Assembly: GCA_902593795.1 (NCBI GenBank)
Contig: CACJJR010000002.1
Coordinates: 62,001 to 126,000 of the forward strand
Length of the DNA: 64,000 nt
Source of the DNA: an uncultured Candidatus Actinomarina sp.
GTDB taxonomy: Bacteria > Actinomycetota > Acidimicrobiia > Actinomarinales > Actinomarinaceae
Direction: 5' to 3'
Shown piece after piece: positions 4,071 through 28,692 of the stretch. The translations under genes and the position numbers were made by a program. Numbering within the stretch: the first letter of the stretch is position 1; each line of letters starts with the position of its first letter. Under the pieces are notes generated by a model that saw only the letters and a program-made list of their open reading frames with translations, had not been told where the DNA came from and made no database searches.

Positions 4071-4493
4071 CTAAGACAAAGAAAGAACTAATACCGGGAT
4101 CTTTCTTGAGGTTCTTACCTGATAATTTGAATAACCTCCTTTATTCATATAGTCCATTTTGTGCCACCACTCTTCTCTTTCATCGTCAAAAACTTCTCTT
4201 GCGATTGCATTAAATTTATTTTTCCCAATTTGGATTTCACACTTTGGATTAGATATTAAGTTATGATACCAACCAGGATTAGTTGGGCTCCCACCCTTTG
4301 ATGCTACTAAGCATATTTGTTCTGCTTCTTTCATAAATACAAGTACATTTTTTCGTAATAAATTTGTTTTTGCTCCTGTTGAGTAAAGAATTAAACATGG
4401 TCTTCCCTGTAAAAATTTACCAATTCTTCCATTTGAATAGATATATATATAATTGTGAAAAAATAAAAATAAAAATATTAGATATCTTCTCAT
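4071..4493 (-). CDS. deazaflavin (F420)-dependent nitroreductase/oxidoreductase, Ddn family
   Basis: GRIGKFLQGRPCLILYSTGAKTN...VASKGGSPTNPGWYHNLISNP pattern of Ddn/DUF385. Confidence 0.78.
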   Translation of the reverse strand: MRRYLIFLFLFFHNYIYIYSNGRIGKFLQGRPCLILYSTGAKTNLLRKNVLVFMKEAEQICLVASKGGSPTNPGWYHNLISNPKCEIQIGKNKFNAIAREVFDDEREEWWHKMDYMNKGGYSNYQVRTSRKIPVLVLSLS

Positions 4494-5689
4494 ACTTTTA
4501 ATTTAATCTTTTTTTTCCATGAACTATAACTAGATGGATAGAAATCTATTGGTTCAGCAAGTCTTTGTGCTGGAAATTCAACTGATGGAATATTTTGCAT
4601 AGTTATTTCACGATACTTAGGTACGGGTGCAAAAGTAGATGCAAAATATTTATTATTAAGATATTCTTTTGGATCATCTAAGTGGACTTCAAGTTCTTTT
4701 TTATTGTTAATTTCCTTTAGGCAATCTAATAAAAAATTTATTCTTTTTGTAGATAATTGTAATTTGTTAAGTAAATTGATATCAAATATAAATACGATAG
4801 GCAGTTCGTTGTAAAAACTGGCTGCAGGATCATTGTCTCCTAGTGATTCTCCTGTAATCCAAACAAATGATGGTTTACTTTTTTCATTTTCTTTTGTAAA
4901 TTGTGGTCCAAATATTCTTTCATTATGTAAATCTATATTAATTTCCAACTTCTCAGTGATTGATGTTTGTGGCCATTCCTGTATTGGGCAGTTATTTTTT
5001 AATTCGCAACTATTACATAATTCTGGTGCACGTTTCTCAACCTGAAATTTTGAAAATCCGTATGGTTTGCCAGTTTGTGAACCCATTACCCATTGCCATC
5101 CAAGTCTGTTTGCAAATCGCGAACCATCAATAAGATGTTTAAACATATAATCTTCAATTTTATTCCAGTTTTGACCATTTCTTAATGAGTTATGTGATGC
5201 GTACCACATACGAGTTTGATTAACCATATATCCTGTACTTTCAAGTTCTTCTTCAATTGTTGATATACATTTCATTCCTTCGTATAAATCTATATTTAAA
5301 TTGGGTATTTCGACTTTATAATTTAAATAATTGGATGATTTTTTCCCAACTATTGCATATAAGTGTCTCGAAAACTCCTGCCACAAGAGCTCATCTCGAA
5401 ATTTTGTTTTATCTTTATATTCAAAGTTCTCAACAGCATTCCAAACATCATTAAGGCCTAATAATCCATGTCGAATATATGGTGAAAGGTACGAAGAGCC
5501 TCTTTTACTTTTTGGGTATACATTATTTCTCTTAGTTGCGTATTTATCAATGTTTAATTGATTTAGAGCAGTATCAGCGTTTGATTGCCCACCTTTTAAA
5601 AAAGGAGTAGTGTAATTGTCACAACATAAATTTGTAAAATGATCATTTATTATTTGTTCATTTTCTAATCGCAGATTAATTAAAGACAT
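4490..5689 (-). CDS. photolyase/cryptochrome-like FAD-binding protein, apparently circularly permuted
   Basis: N-terminal half matches the FAD domain (SSYLSPYIRHG, ELLWQEFSRHL, TGYMVNQTRMWYAS, HLIDGSRFANRLGWQWVMG); C-terminal part resembles the antenna alpha/beta domain (SFVWITGESLGDNDPAA...IVFIFDINLL...LSTKRINFLLDCL...LDDPKEYL). Confidence 0.8.
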   Translation of the reverse strand: MSLINLRLENEQIINDHFTNLCCDNYTTPFLKGGQSNADTALNQLNIDKYATKRNNVYPKSKRGSSYLSPYIRHGLLGLNDVWNAVENFEYKDKTKFRDELLWQEFSRHLYAIVGKKSSNYLNYKVEIPNLNIDLYEGMKCISTIEEELESTGYMVNQTRMWYASHNSLRNGQNWNKIEDYMFKHLIDGSRFANRLGWQWVMGSQTGKPYGFSKFQVEKRAPELCNSCELKNNCPIQEWPQTSITEKLEINIDLHNERIFGPQFTKENEKSKPSFVWITGESLGDNDPAASFYNELPIVFIFDINLLNKLQLSTKRINFLLDCLKEINNKKELEVHLDDPKEYLNNKYFASTFAPVPKYREITMQNIPSVEFPAQRLAEPIDFYPSSYSSWKKKIKLKV

Positions 5690-5698
5690 TAATATTTT

Positions 5699-5914
5699 CT
5701 AATATTTGTCTTGTCCAATTCGGATATTTACAATTGTTGGTATTTCATCTCTTTGTTCTATATCGAAGTTAACCCGTTGTCCTTGCCTAAGTGTTCTAAA
5801 TATAGAACCTTTTAAAGATCCTGGAGCTAAGAAGACTTCTGTTTTGTCGGTGTCAAGTATGACAATGCCGTTACCAGTATTTGGATCATAGGATTTAACA
5901 ACACCCTGCGCCAT
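5699..5914 (-). CDS. cold-shock-domain-like protein (divergent)
   Basis: [21 protein letters not shown]...EVFLAPGSLKG...LRQGQRVNFDIEQ follows the CSD pattern. Confidence 0.65.
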   Translation of the reverse strand: MAQGVVKSYDPNTGNGIVILDTDKTEVFLAPGSLKGSIFRTLRQGQRVNFDIEQRDEIPTIVNIRIGQDKY

Positions 5915-6150
5915 TAAACTTTTTCGCCCCTAGTTCTTATTTCTTTAACTACTGACTCAATTCCACGTCTATCTATAATTTTGTTGCCTTTTGTACTAAC
6001 TTTAAGTTTTACCCACCTATTTTCGCTTCCAAGCCAATATTTTTTAGTTTGTATGTTTGGCTTGAACCAACGGTTGTTTCTTTTATGTGAAAAAGAAACA
6101 CGCTTACCTGATCTTGGCTCTCTTCCAGTTACTTGGCATCTATTCGACAT
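5914..6150 (-). CDS. rpmB: 50S ribosomal protein L28
   Basis: [34 protein letters not shown]. Confidence 0.93.
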
Positions 6151-25745: not shown

Positions 25746-26867
25746 ATGACAGATTTAACAAGAAATATTAATAATTCAATATTTGGATCTATCTCTACTG
25801 ATGAACTTCTTGCTGAAGCTTTTGCGAAAAAAAAGGAATACTTTGGCAACAACATAACATATAGCCCTAAAGTATTTATTCCATTAACAACCATGTGTAG
25901 AGATAATTGTGGGTATTGTACATTTGTAAAATCACCTAAAGAGGGTGGAACTTATTTAAATCAAGATGAGGTTAATTCTATAGCAAAAGCCGGTGATGAT
26001 ACGGGTTGCTATGAAGCTTTATTTACTTTAGGCGATAAACCAGAACTTAAATGGGATTATGCTTTAACCCAACTTGAGGAATTAGGTTATTCCTCAACTC
26101 ATGAGTATCTAGTTAGCTCAATGAAGAATGTAAATGAAAAATATAATCTATTTCCTCATGCAAATCCTGGTTTGATGACCCAACTAGAAATTAAAGAATT
26201 AAAAAAATACTCACCATCTGGTGGAATTATGATTGAATCATTTTCTAAAAATATTTATGACAAAGGAAAAGCTCATTACAAAACAAATACTAAATACATC
26301 GATTTAAGGTTAGAAACCCTCAATAATGCTTTTATAGAAAAGTATCCTGTTACAACTGGATTACTACTTGGTTTAACTTCTACAAAAGATGAAATTATAA
26401 ATGATATATCAAATTTAATTAGTTATTTAAATGAGAACTTAGCAATACAGGAAGTAATACTTCAAAATTTTAGAGCAAAGAAAAACACATTAATGAGGAA
26501 TAGTTCAGAAATAACAAACGATTTATTTTTAAGAATCATTGCAACTACTAGAATTTATGCACCTTCACATATTTCTCTTCAAGTTCCACCGAATCTTTCA
26601 CCAGATATAATGAAATTTTTAAAAAGTGGTATTAATGATTTAGGTGGAATATCACCATTAACAATAGACTGGGTTAATCCAGATCATTTATGGCCAAATA
26701 TTAAAAAATTAGAATTAGATATTTCAAGCACAGGACAAGTACTTAAAAAGAGGCTTCCTGTTTACCCTGAATTCATAAAAAAAGAATGGTTAAATAGTAA
26801 AATATTTGAAAAAGTTAATAATATTATTGATACAGATGGATACCCAAGAGAAACAAATGAATCATAA
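25746..26867 (+). CDS. cofG: FO synthase subunit 1 (CofG-like radical SAM)
   Basis: FIPLTTMCRDNCGYCTFVKSP; GGISPLTIDWVNPDHLWP. Confidence 0.9.
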   Translation: MTDLTRNINNSIFGSISTDELLAEAFAKKKEYFGNNITYSPKVFIPLTTMCRDNCGYCTFVKSPKEGGTYLNQDEVNSIAKAGDDTGCYEALFTLGDKPELKWDYALTQLEELGYSSTHEYLVSSMKNVNEKYNLFPHANPGLMTQLEIKELKKYSPSGGIMIESFSKNIYDKGKAHYKTNTKYIDLRLETLNNAFIEKYPVTTGLLLGLTSTKDEIINDISNLISYLNENLAIQEVILQNFRAKKNTLMRNSSEITNDLFLRIIATTRIYAPSHISLQVPPNLSPDIMKFLKSGINDLGGISPLTIDWVNPDHLWPNIKKLELDISSTGQVLKKRLPVYPEFIKKEWLNSKIFEKVNNIIDTDGYPRETNES

Positions 26868-28692
26868 TATTTCATTTCTGAGAATAAGGCCGTGCGATAA
26901 CGATAATGAAATATATTTAAATTCTAGAAAAAAAGAGGGAACTTCAGGATTCTTATTAAAAGAAGAATTAAATCTCGACATAAACGAAATACATAAAAAG
27001 GGATTTCAAACTTTATCAAGAGATTTAGAAATTAATTCTGATGGCTGGTTAATTAAAGATAGTAACTGGAAAAAATTTCAAGAAATCAACCCAAAAAGAT
27101 TAATTTACTTATATAAAGACAACAAAGAAAGCGCGCTTGAAATTATAGATAGATTGAGCCCTTACACAATCTTGATATCTAAAACATCAGATTTAGATTT
27201 TATTAAATCTATTAATACAAAAGTAAAATTCATGACTTCTGTATATGTAGACACAGTTGAAGATGCAATTAAATTTATTGATAGTGGAGTATCAGATCTT
27301 TTGCTTAGAGATTGGAGTTCTGAACAAATTGAAGAGTTACAAGGTGTTGAAAGGTTAAATGTCTATGAAAGAACTCTTCTATCACCTATTTTTTCAATTG
27401 ATGAGGCTCGAGATGAATTCGATAAAGAGAGATATTTCAGATATTTGAATACTAGAAATGTTAGGGGGTTTAGAAGAGAAAAAACAGAATGGTCACCTGG
27501 TAGCGGTAAAAATATCCCAAAATTAAACAATTTTGTATTTAATAATAAAAGCCAAATAAATCATTCAGATATTGATCTAATTCTAAAAAGCGTACTAGAT
27601 GGTTATCAAATATCAGATGAAGAACTAAAACTACTTTTTAAAACAGCCGGTGAAAAAATAAATGATATAGCGAATGTTGCTAATGAGTTAAATTTTCTGA
27701 AGAATGGAAATAATGTATCTTACGTAATCAATCGAAATATAAATTACACAAATCAGTGTTATTATAAATGCGGTTTTTGTGGATTTTCAAAAGGGCCAAA
27801 CAGTTTGAATCTTAAAGAAAAACCATATTCTATAGATATTGAAGAGGTTGTAGCTAGGTCTACTGAGGCTTATAGTATGGGTGCATCGGAGGTTTGTTTA
27901 CAGGGAGGAATACATCCCGAATATACTGGTGAGTTTTATTTAAAAATGGTTAGAGATATCAAAAAGTCAGTTCCTGAGATGCATATTCATGGTTTTACTC
28001 CTCTAGAAATATGGCAGGGTGCAGAAACAATTAACATGGATATAGAAGGATATTTAAAACTACTTAAAACTGCCGGGCTTAATACTTTGCCTGGCACAGC
28101 CGCTGAGATACTTGATGACAGAGTAAGAAAATATTTATGTCCTGATAAAATTACATCTGCTCAATGGGCTTATGTAATGGAAGTTGCACATAGTTTAGGA
28201 ATAAAATCTACAGCAACAATTATGTTTGGTCATATAGACGATATCGATTCATGGGTAAATCATTTCTCATTAATTAAAAATATACAAGATAAAACAGGAG
28301 GATTTACAGAAGTAGTACCACTTCCATTTGTTCATATGGGGTCGCCAATATACTTACAAGGTAAAAGTATGCCTGGCCCAACTTGGGATGAAGTAGTACT
28401 TATACATGCTCTCGCCCGGATTTATTTTTCAAATATAATTGATAATATTCAAGCTAGTTGGGTTAAGTTAGGACATGATGGCGCTGGAAAACTTCTTCAT
28501 GCCGGAGTGAATGATCTCGGAGGTACTCTTATTAATGAAAATATAAGTAGGGCATCTGGTGCTGATCATGGTCAAGAGACAACAGAAGATGAATTTATTC
28601 AAATTATAGAATCGAATAATAAAAATCCTGTTTTAAGGAATACTCTTTATACAAATTTTAAAGAAACTAAAAGTACTTTAGAAAATAGATGA
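26857..28692 (+). CDS. cofH: FO synthase subunit 2 (CofH-like radical SAM) with extra N-terminal domain
   Basis: YVINRNINYTNQCYYKCGFCGFSKGP, EVCLQGGIHPEYTG; ATG at 26857 (MNHNISF) preferred over the 26806 ORF start. Confidence 0.88.
   Translation: MNHNISFLRIRPCDNDNEIYLNSRKKEGTSGFLLKEELNLDINEIHKKGFQTLSRDLEINSDGWLIKDSNWKKFQEINPKRLIYLYKDNKESALEIIDRLSPYTILISKTSDLDFIKSINTKVKFMTSVYVDTVEDAIKFIDSGVSDLLLRDWSSEQIEELQGVERLNVYERTLLSPIFSIDEARDEFDKERYFRYLNTRNVRGFRREKTEWSPGSGKNIPKLNNFVFNNKSQINHSDIDLILKSVLDGYQISDEELKLLFKTAGEKINDIANVANELNFLKNGNNVSYVINRNINYTNQCYYKCGFCGFSKGPNSLNLKEKPYSIDIEEVVARSTEAYSMGASEVCLQGGIHPEYTGEFYLKMVRDIKKSVPEMHIHGFTPLEIWQGAETINMDIEGYLKLLKTAGLNTLPGTAAEILDDRVRKYLCPDKITSAQWAYVMEVAHSLGIKSTATIMFGHIDDIDSWVNHFSLIKNIQDKTGGFTEVVPLPFVHMGSPIYLQGKSMPGPTWDEVVLIHALARIYFSNIIDNIQASWVKLGHDGAGKLLHAGVNDLGGTLINENISRASGADHGQETTEDEFIQIIESNNKNPVLRNTLYTNFKETKSTLENR

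Follow-up and report, generated by a model that had tools for sequence, protein, structure and literature searches.

The window, a 64,000-nucleotide stretch from the genome of an uncultured Candidatus Actinomarina sp., encodes a 399-residue protein that is likely a DNA photolyase of reversed domain order, in which CPD repair is the most likely function and light would be collected by a C-terminal antenna pigment, probably 8-HDF. The catalytic FAD domain comes first, carries a putative 4Fe-4S site at its end, and is followed by a shortened antenna domain. In the proposed mechanism, energy from the pigment in the C-terminal domain would pass to reduced FAD, and an electron from the reduced FAD would reach the dimer, which would then split. 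The sequence comparisons show the domain order, the homology of both domains, the invariant cysteines, the CPD-type residues, and a gene for 8-HDF synthase, and from these we infer the cofactor binding, the substrate, and the antenna function.

Gene, locus and occurrence

The open reading frame was found exactly where the sequence-only reading had placed it, and it lies in a minus-strand gene series running from L28 through a cold-shock protein and the photolyase to an F420H2-dependent reductase.

4490..5689, minus strand: reverse-domain-order photolyase gene, 399 aa (open reading frame listing and family members)
4071..4493, minus strand: F420H2-dependent reductase (DDN-like) gene, overlapping the photolyase stop by ATGA (Pfam PF04075, E 1.8e-38)
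5699..5914, minus strand: cold-shock-domain protein gene, just upstream of the photolyase, in the probable operon
5914..6150, minus strand: ribosomal protein L28 gene, probable head of the operon

The four genes probably constitute one operon. Each of the 35 distinct Actinomarina loci that were tested has the ATGA overlap, which suggests that the photolyase and the reductase are translationally coupled. Next to the photolyase relatives outside the genus Actinomarina, the reductase gene was not seen.

Relatives of the protein were identified in 35 of 42 Actinomarina genomes, including its own (an assembly of 1.07 Mb in 11 contigs), and its closest protein relatives are named Candidatus Actinomarina. 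Further relatives occurred in other actinobacteria and on Deinococcus plasmids, and the survey of homologues showed that these share the FAD-first order. The viral-contig scan yielded no relative, and no full-length relative was found in the phage records. Reverse-order proteins of this kind were known from a few cyanobacteria; here, the architecture is a conserved feature of a marine genus of actinobacteria and occurs in other actinobacteria as well, with the relocated antenna domain still recognizable.

Catalytic domain and active site

The catalytic domain and its lesion-side motif were located as follows.

4955..5632, minus strand: FAD-binding catalytic domain, residues ~20-245 (Pfam FAD_binding_7, phmmer to 1owl/1tez, hhalign)
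5207..5221, minus strand: N157-M161, CPD-type lesion-side motif (aligned with N349 and M353 of 1owl)

The FAD-domain motifs cited in the sequence-only reading are present, and profile searches agreed with them. Pfam FAD_binding_7 matched residues 138-208 (E 1.4e-8), phmmer aligned residues 58-205 with FAD-domain residues 233-397 of the class I photolyases 1owl and 1tez, and hhalign matched residues 28-208 to a profile of 13 conventional photolyases with P 2.5e-29. In the phmmer alignment, E100, W103, N157, M161, R160, and D188 corresponded to E283, W286, N349, M353, R352, and D380 of 1owl, residues whose roles we assign partly by what is well established for class I photolyases. N157 was invariant and M161 almost invariant in the family alignment, and N194 was also kept among the residues contacting FAD or the lesion. 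Where (6-4) enzymes have their HH motif, this protein has N157 and M161. Judged by this alignment, the active-site residues are of the CPD type and not of the HH (6-4) type.

Two positions of the FAD pocket are changed relative to class I in the 1owl alignment, R287 to Q104 and D382 to S190; apart from these, the catalytic domain and the contact residues place the protein in the cryptochrome/photolyase superfamily. The alteration of two usually conserved pocket residues, together with the probable operon with a redox enzyme, would suit a cryptochrome-like light sensor rather than a repair enzyme. We regard such a sensor as improbable, as the lesion-side residues E100, W103, N157, and M161 are retained and neither a regulatory partner nor an extra C-terminal tail was seen. 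Nothing pointed to a cryptochrome over a photolyase.

Putative Fe-S site

Four cysteines of the catalytic domain are putative ligands of a 4Fe-4S cluster.

5267..5269, minus strand: C141, the first putative 4Fe-4S ligand among four invariant cysteines (invariant in 74 sequences and alignment A1)
4988..5017, minus strand: C225-x2-C228-x5-C234, other putative 4Fe-4S ligands (invariant in alignment A1)

The spacing of C141, C225, C228, and C234 is 84, 3, and 6, which is nearly identical to that of the Fe-S cysteines C169, C254, C257, and C263 of Synechococcus RS9916 Phr4 (85, 3, and 6; PMC9426592), the first interval differing by 84 against 85. The cluster probably plays a structural role.

Haney et al. 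took the Fe-S site as a hint of (6-4) repair by their reverse-order Synechococcus proteins (PMC9426592), and a predicted Fe-S cluster is indeed common to the window protein and the FeS-BCP (6-4) enzymes. Nevertheless, (6-4) repair is an unlikely function for the window protein, since it has N157/M161 instead of HH, and a separate PF04244 photolyase in the same genome does carry this motif, which makes the (6-4) role look filled in this cell. The spacing of the putative Fe-S cysteines, which we take to differ from that of FeS-BCP, also argues against it.

CPD repair thus stays the favored function, and the other photolyases of the cell bear on it. A PF03441 search of the genome returned two photolyases only, and a class II search revealed a third, class II-like gene, with matches in 34 of 42 Actinomarina genomes. 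The idea that the 399-residue protein is the sole CPD photolyase of the cell was therefore dropped. Next to the class II-like CPD photolyase, CPD repair by the window protein would be redundant in part, unless it favors single-stranded DNA. In the PF04244 photolyase of this genome (L073:2519-4021), the CxxC pair that belongs to the FeS-BCP cluster is apparently missing, and in this the enzyme resembles the Fe-S-less forms reported in Prochlorococcus.

C-terminal antenna domain

The C-terminal third of the protein was assigned by family comparison.

4493..4876, minus strand: shortened antenna (Rossmann-like) domain, residues ~272-399 (hhalign with shuffle control; PDB and Pfam profile matches)

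The Pfam scan gave no match in the C-terminus of the window protein itself, and hence the antenna identity rests on the family and not on the single sequence. A weak second phmmer segment paired residues 295-330, ungapped, with residues 30-65 of the 1owl antenna domain. When the C-terminal regions of 50 relatives were combined in a profile (alignment A3), hhalign matched the profile to residues 5-142 of conventional photolyases with P 9.5e-7. With 22 references the match covered residues 5-134 with P 9e-7, and its score was 49.9, whereas the best of 40 column shuffles reached 20.2. The antenna-like motifs noticed in the sequence-only reading are thus present beyond chance. When the same profile was searched against the PDB, 12 of the 14 matches at E<=10 were antenna regions of photolyases or cryptochromes (best E 0.039), and the other two were antibody chains. 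Pfam DNA_photolyase was matched in 10 of the 50 family members (best E 0.0024). The Deinococcus relatives have the same domain order with a less shortened C-terminal domain, and their antenna match reached P 6.4e-11.

The missing Pfam match in the window protein alone and the modest PDB profile statistics (best E 0.039) could be taken to mean that the C-terminus holds some unrelated alpha/beta domain with a superficial likeness to an antenna domain. This is very improbable given the colinear profile match far above the shuffles, the Deinococcus match, and PDB matches that lie nearly all in photolyase/cryptochrome antenna regions. The C-terminal region is also nearly as conserved as the entire protein (74 vs 78%, 67 vs 67%, and 66 vs 66% in the first relatives), which indicates that it is not debris. 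AlphaFold with an eight-sequence alignment gave a pLDDT of 30 for the full length and 38 for the C-terminal domain, too low for either model to be of use.

Separate tests on both halves therefore supported a shortened antenna domain behind the catalytic domain; as judged from these comparisons, the domain order is swapped within one open reading frame, as had been claimed. An antenna domain on the opposite end provides a natural test of whether docking and energy transfer to FAD survive such a relocation.

Probable antenna pigment

R316 is invariant in the family and aligned without gaps with Arg51 of Synechococcus elongatus PhrA (1owl), which has been reported as crucial to 8-HDF binding; this arginine is not confined to 8-HDF enzymes. 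L320 aligned with Leu55 on the pocket floor of the same enzyme. One gene for synthesis of the pigment and a neighboring candidate were located in the window.

26806..28692, plus strand: cofH gene, Fo (8-HDF) synthase subunit (TIGR03551, 464.8 bits, above the curated cut-off)
25746..26867, plus strand: radical-SAM gene adjoining cofH, cofG candidate read by eye (weak cofH-family match, sequence)

Read by eye, the radical-SAM gene may be cofG, the other half of Fo synthase. Actinomarinales have been reported to produce F420. The Arg51 equivalent and an 8-HDF synthesis gene thus occur in the same cell, and the antenna pigment is probably 8-HDF from the cell's own F420 pathway. The C-terminal domain has only ~130 aa, and some helices of a normal antenna domain are apparently missing; for this reason, the shortened domain may hold no pigment. 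The cofH product has an N-terminal extension of ~260 aa ahead of its radical-SAM domain.

Comparison with known photolyases

The sequence-only reading had started from the premise that the antenna domain comes first in known photolyases. This is outdated, as Phr4/Phr5/Phr6 of marine Synechococcus and Cyanobium (PMC9426592) and NewPHLs (Emmerich 2020, as cited in PMC13274461) are reversed. The architecture is already known, described in 2020-2022 in other bacteria, since the reverse order and the cysteine spacing match those of Phr4/Phr5/Phr6 and NewPHLs are inverted too. The possibility raised earlier that the order matches a well-characterized family was therefore borne out in part, by Phr4/Phr5/Phr6 and NewPHLs.

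In Phr4/Phr5 and the fused Phr6 of marine Synechococcus and Cyanobium, the FAD domain comes first, an antenna-type domain second, and Fe-S cysteines are present (Haney 2022, PMC9426592). Profile comparisons gave the same FAD-first, antenna-type-last order for the window protein, which, compared by published description, also has a near-equal four-cysteine spacing. It differs in being actinobacterial, in its antenna domain of ~130 aa, and in the coupling of its gene to an F420H2-dependent reductase; it is a single gene, like Phr6 and unlike the separate Phr4/Phr5. A phr4-phr5 construct of Haney et al. protected E. coli from UV-C, and the effect of light was not significant.

NewPHLs have an inverted order and act on single-stranded DNA (Emmerich 2020, as cited in PMC13274461). 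The window protein shares their inverted topology: in NewPHLs, including Phr7 of Prochlorococcus, the catalytic domain is first, the second domain is C-terminal, and the residues are of the CPD type. It departs from them in its cysteines, which are invariant in the window family; NewPHLs are without Fe-S cysteines and have a Z-domain, reported to seal FAD, in place of the antenna. When a NewPHL served as query against the phylum, the matches listed were limited to the FAD domain, with no clear NewPHL among them.

The short photolyase-like proteins (SPL) carry an Fe-S cluster and are described without an alpha/beta domain (Xu 2021, as summarized in PMC9649867 and PMC9178010). By this description, the window protein resembles SPLs in its Fe-S cluster (putative here), its CPD-type relationship, and the lack of an N-terminal alpha/beta domain, and differs in having an alpha/beta domain at the C-terminus. 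Both NewPHLs and Fe-S SPLs are reported as CPD photolyases, and the Fe-S SPL class probably shares the reverse-order architecture as well.

With the class I CPD photolyase of S. elongatus (PhrA, 1owl), the window protein has in common a colinear FAD domain, the CPD-contact residues, and the Arg51 equivalent, and it differs in its opposite domain order and in the Fe-S cluster, which PhrA lacks. The prokaryotic (6-4) photolyases FeS-BCP/PhrB likewise have Fe-S cysteines in the FAD domain, but their order is conventional, and the HH motif and PF04244 domain that mark them are absent from the window protein, in which the Pfam scan showed no PF04244.

Possible origin of the reversed order

In a tree of FAD domains, a branch with support 99/84 separated conventional class I/III and DASH sequences from all reversed-order groups, whose side also included a single, very long-branched PF04244 sequence. 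The window family and NewPHLs formed separate groups (each 100/99). When class II and PF04244 sequences were added, the branch uniting the reversed-order groups alone had a support of 55. The trees are consistent with all reversed-order proteins forming one putative clade.

The second domain of NewPHLs was compared using seven plasmid sequences (loci L044, L045, and L114-L118). The Z-domain aligned colinearly with the relocated antenna domain seen in actinobacteria and Deinococcus (P 6e-5; 0 of 100 shuffles scored as high), and with conventional antenna domains alone P was 0.017 (1 of 100 shuffles as high). The Z-domain looks like a decayed antenna domain in this shuffle-controlled comparison, in which a general likeness of Rossmann-type folds may also contribute. 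A plasmid of Persicobacter psychrovividus (Bacteroidota; L123) encodes a reverse-order photolyase-like protein that lacks the four Fe-S cysteines and whose C-terminus gave no significant profile match.

According to a published proposal, the first photolyases were Fe-S proteins that had no antenna domain. What may be new here is that relatives of the Fe-S class put forward as this ancestor apparently do have an antenna domain, moved to the C-terminus. We tentatively suggest that neither the Fe-S short photolyases nor the NewPHLs are antenna-less survivors from the base of the family, and that both descend from one reverse-order ancestor with a full C-terminal antenna domain. Deinococcus would have retained this domain and actinobacteria would have shortened it; in Synechococcus and Deinococcus QL22 it would have become a separate gene, and in NewPHLs it would have decayed to the Z-domain. 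A single origin with later shortening, splitting, and decay is a reasonable reading and not a result, because the branch of reversed-order groups alone is weak (the 55 above) and the Z-domain link is weaker. If the antenna domain of the short forms has indeed been moved or has decayed, these proteins would be poor models of the family ancestor. The split in Deinococcus sp. QL22 was found on a plasmid (L043:3001-4292), where the FAD and antenna domains are encoded by two genes with a 4-base overlap, resembling Synechococcus phr4/phr5.
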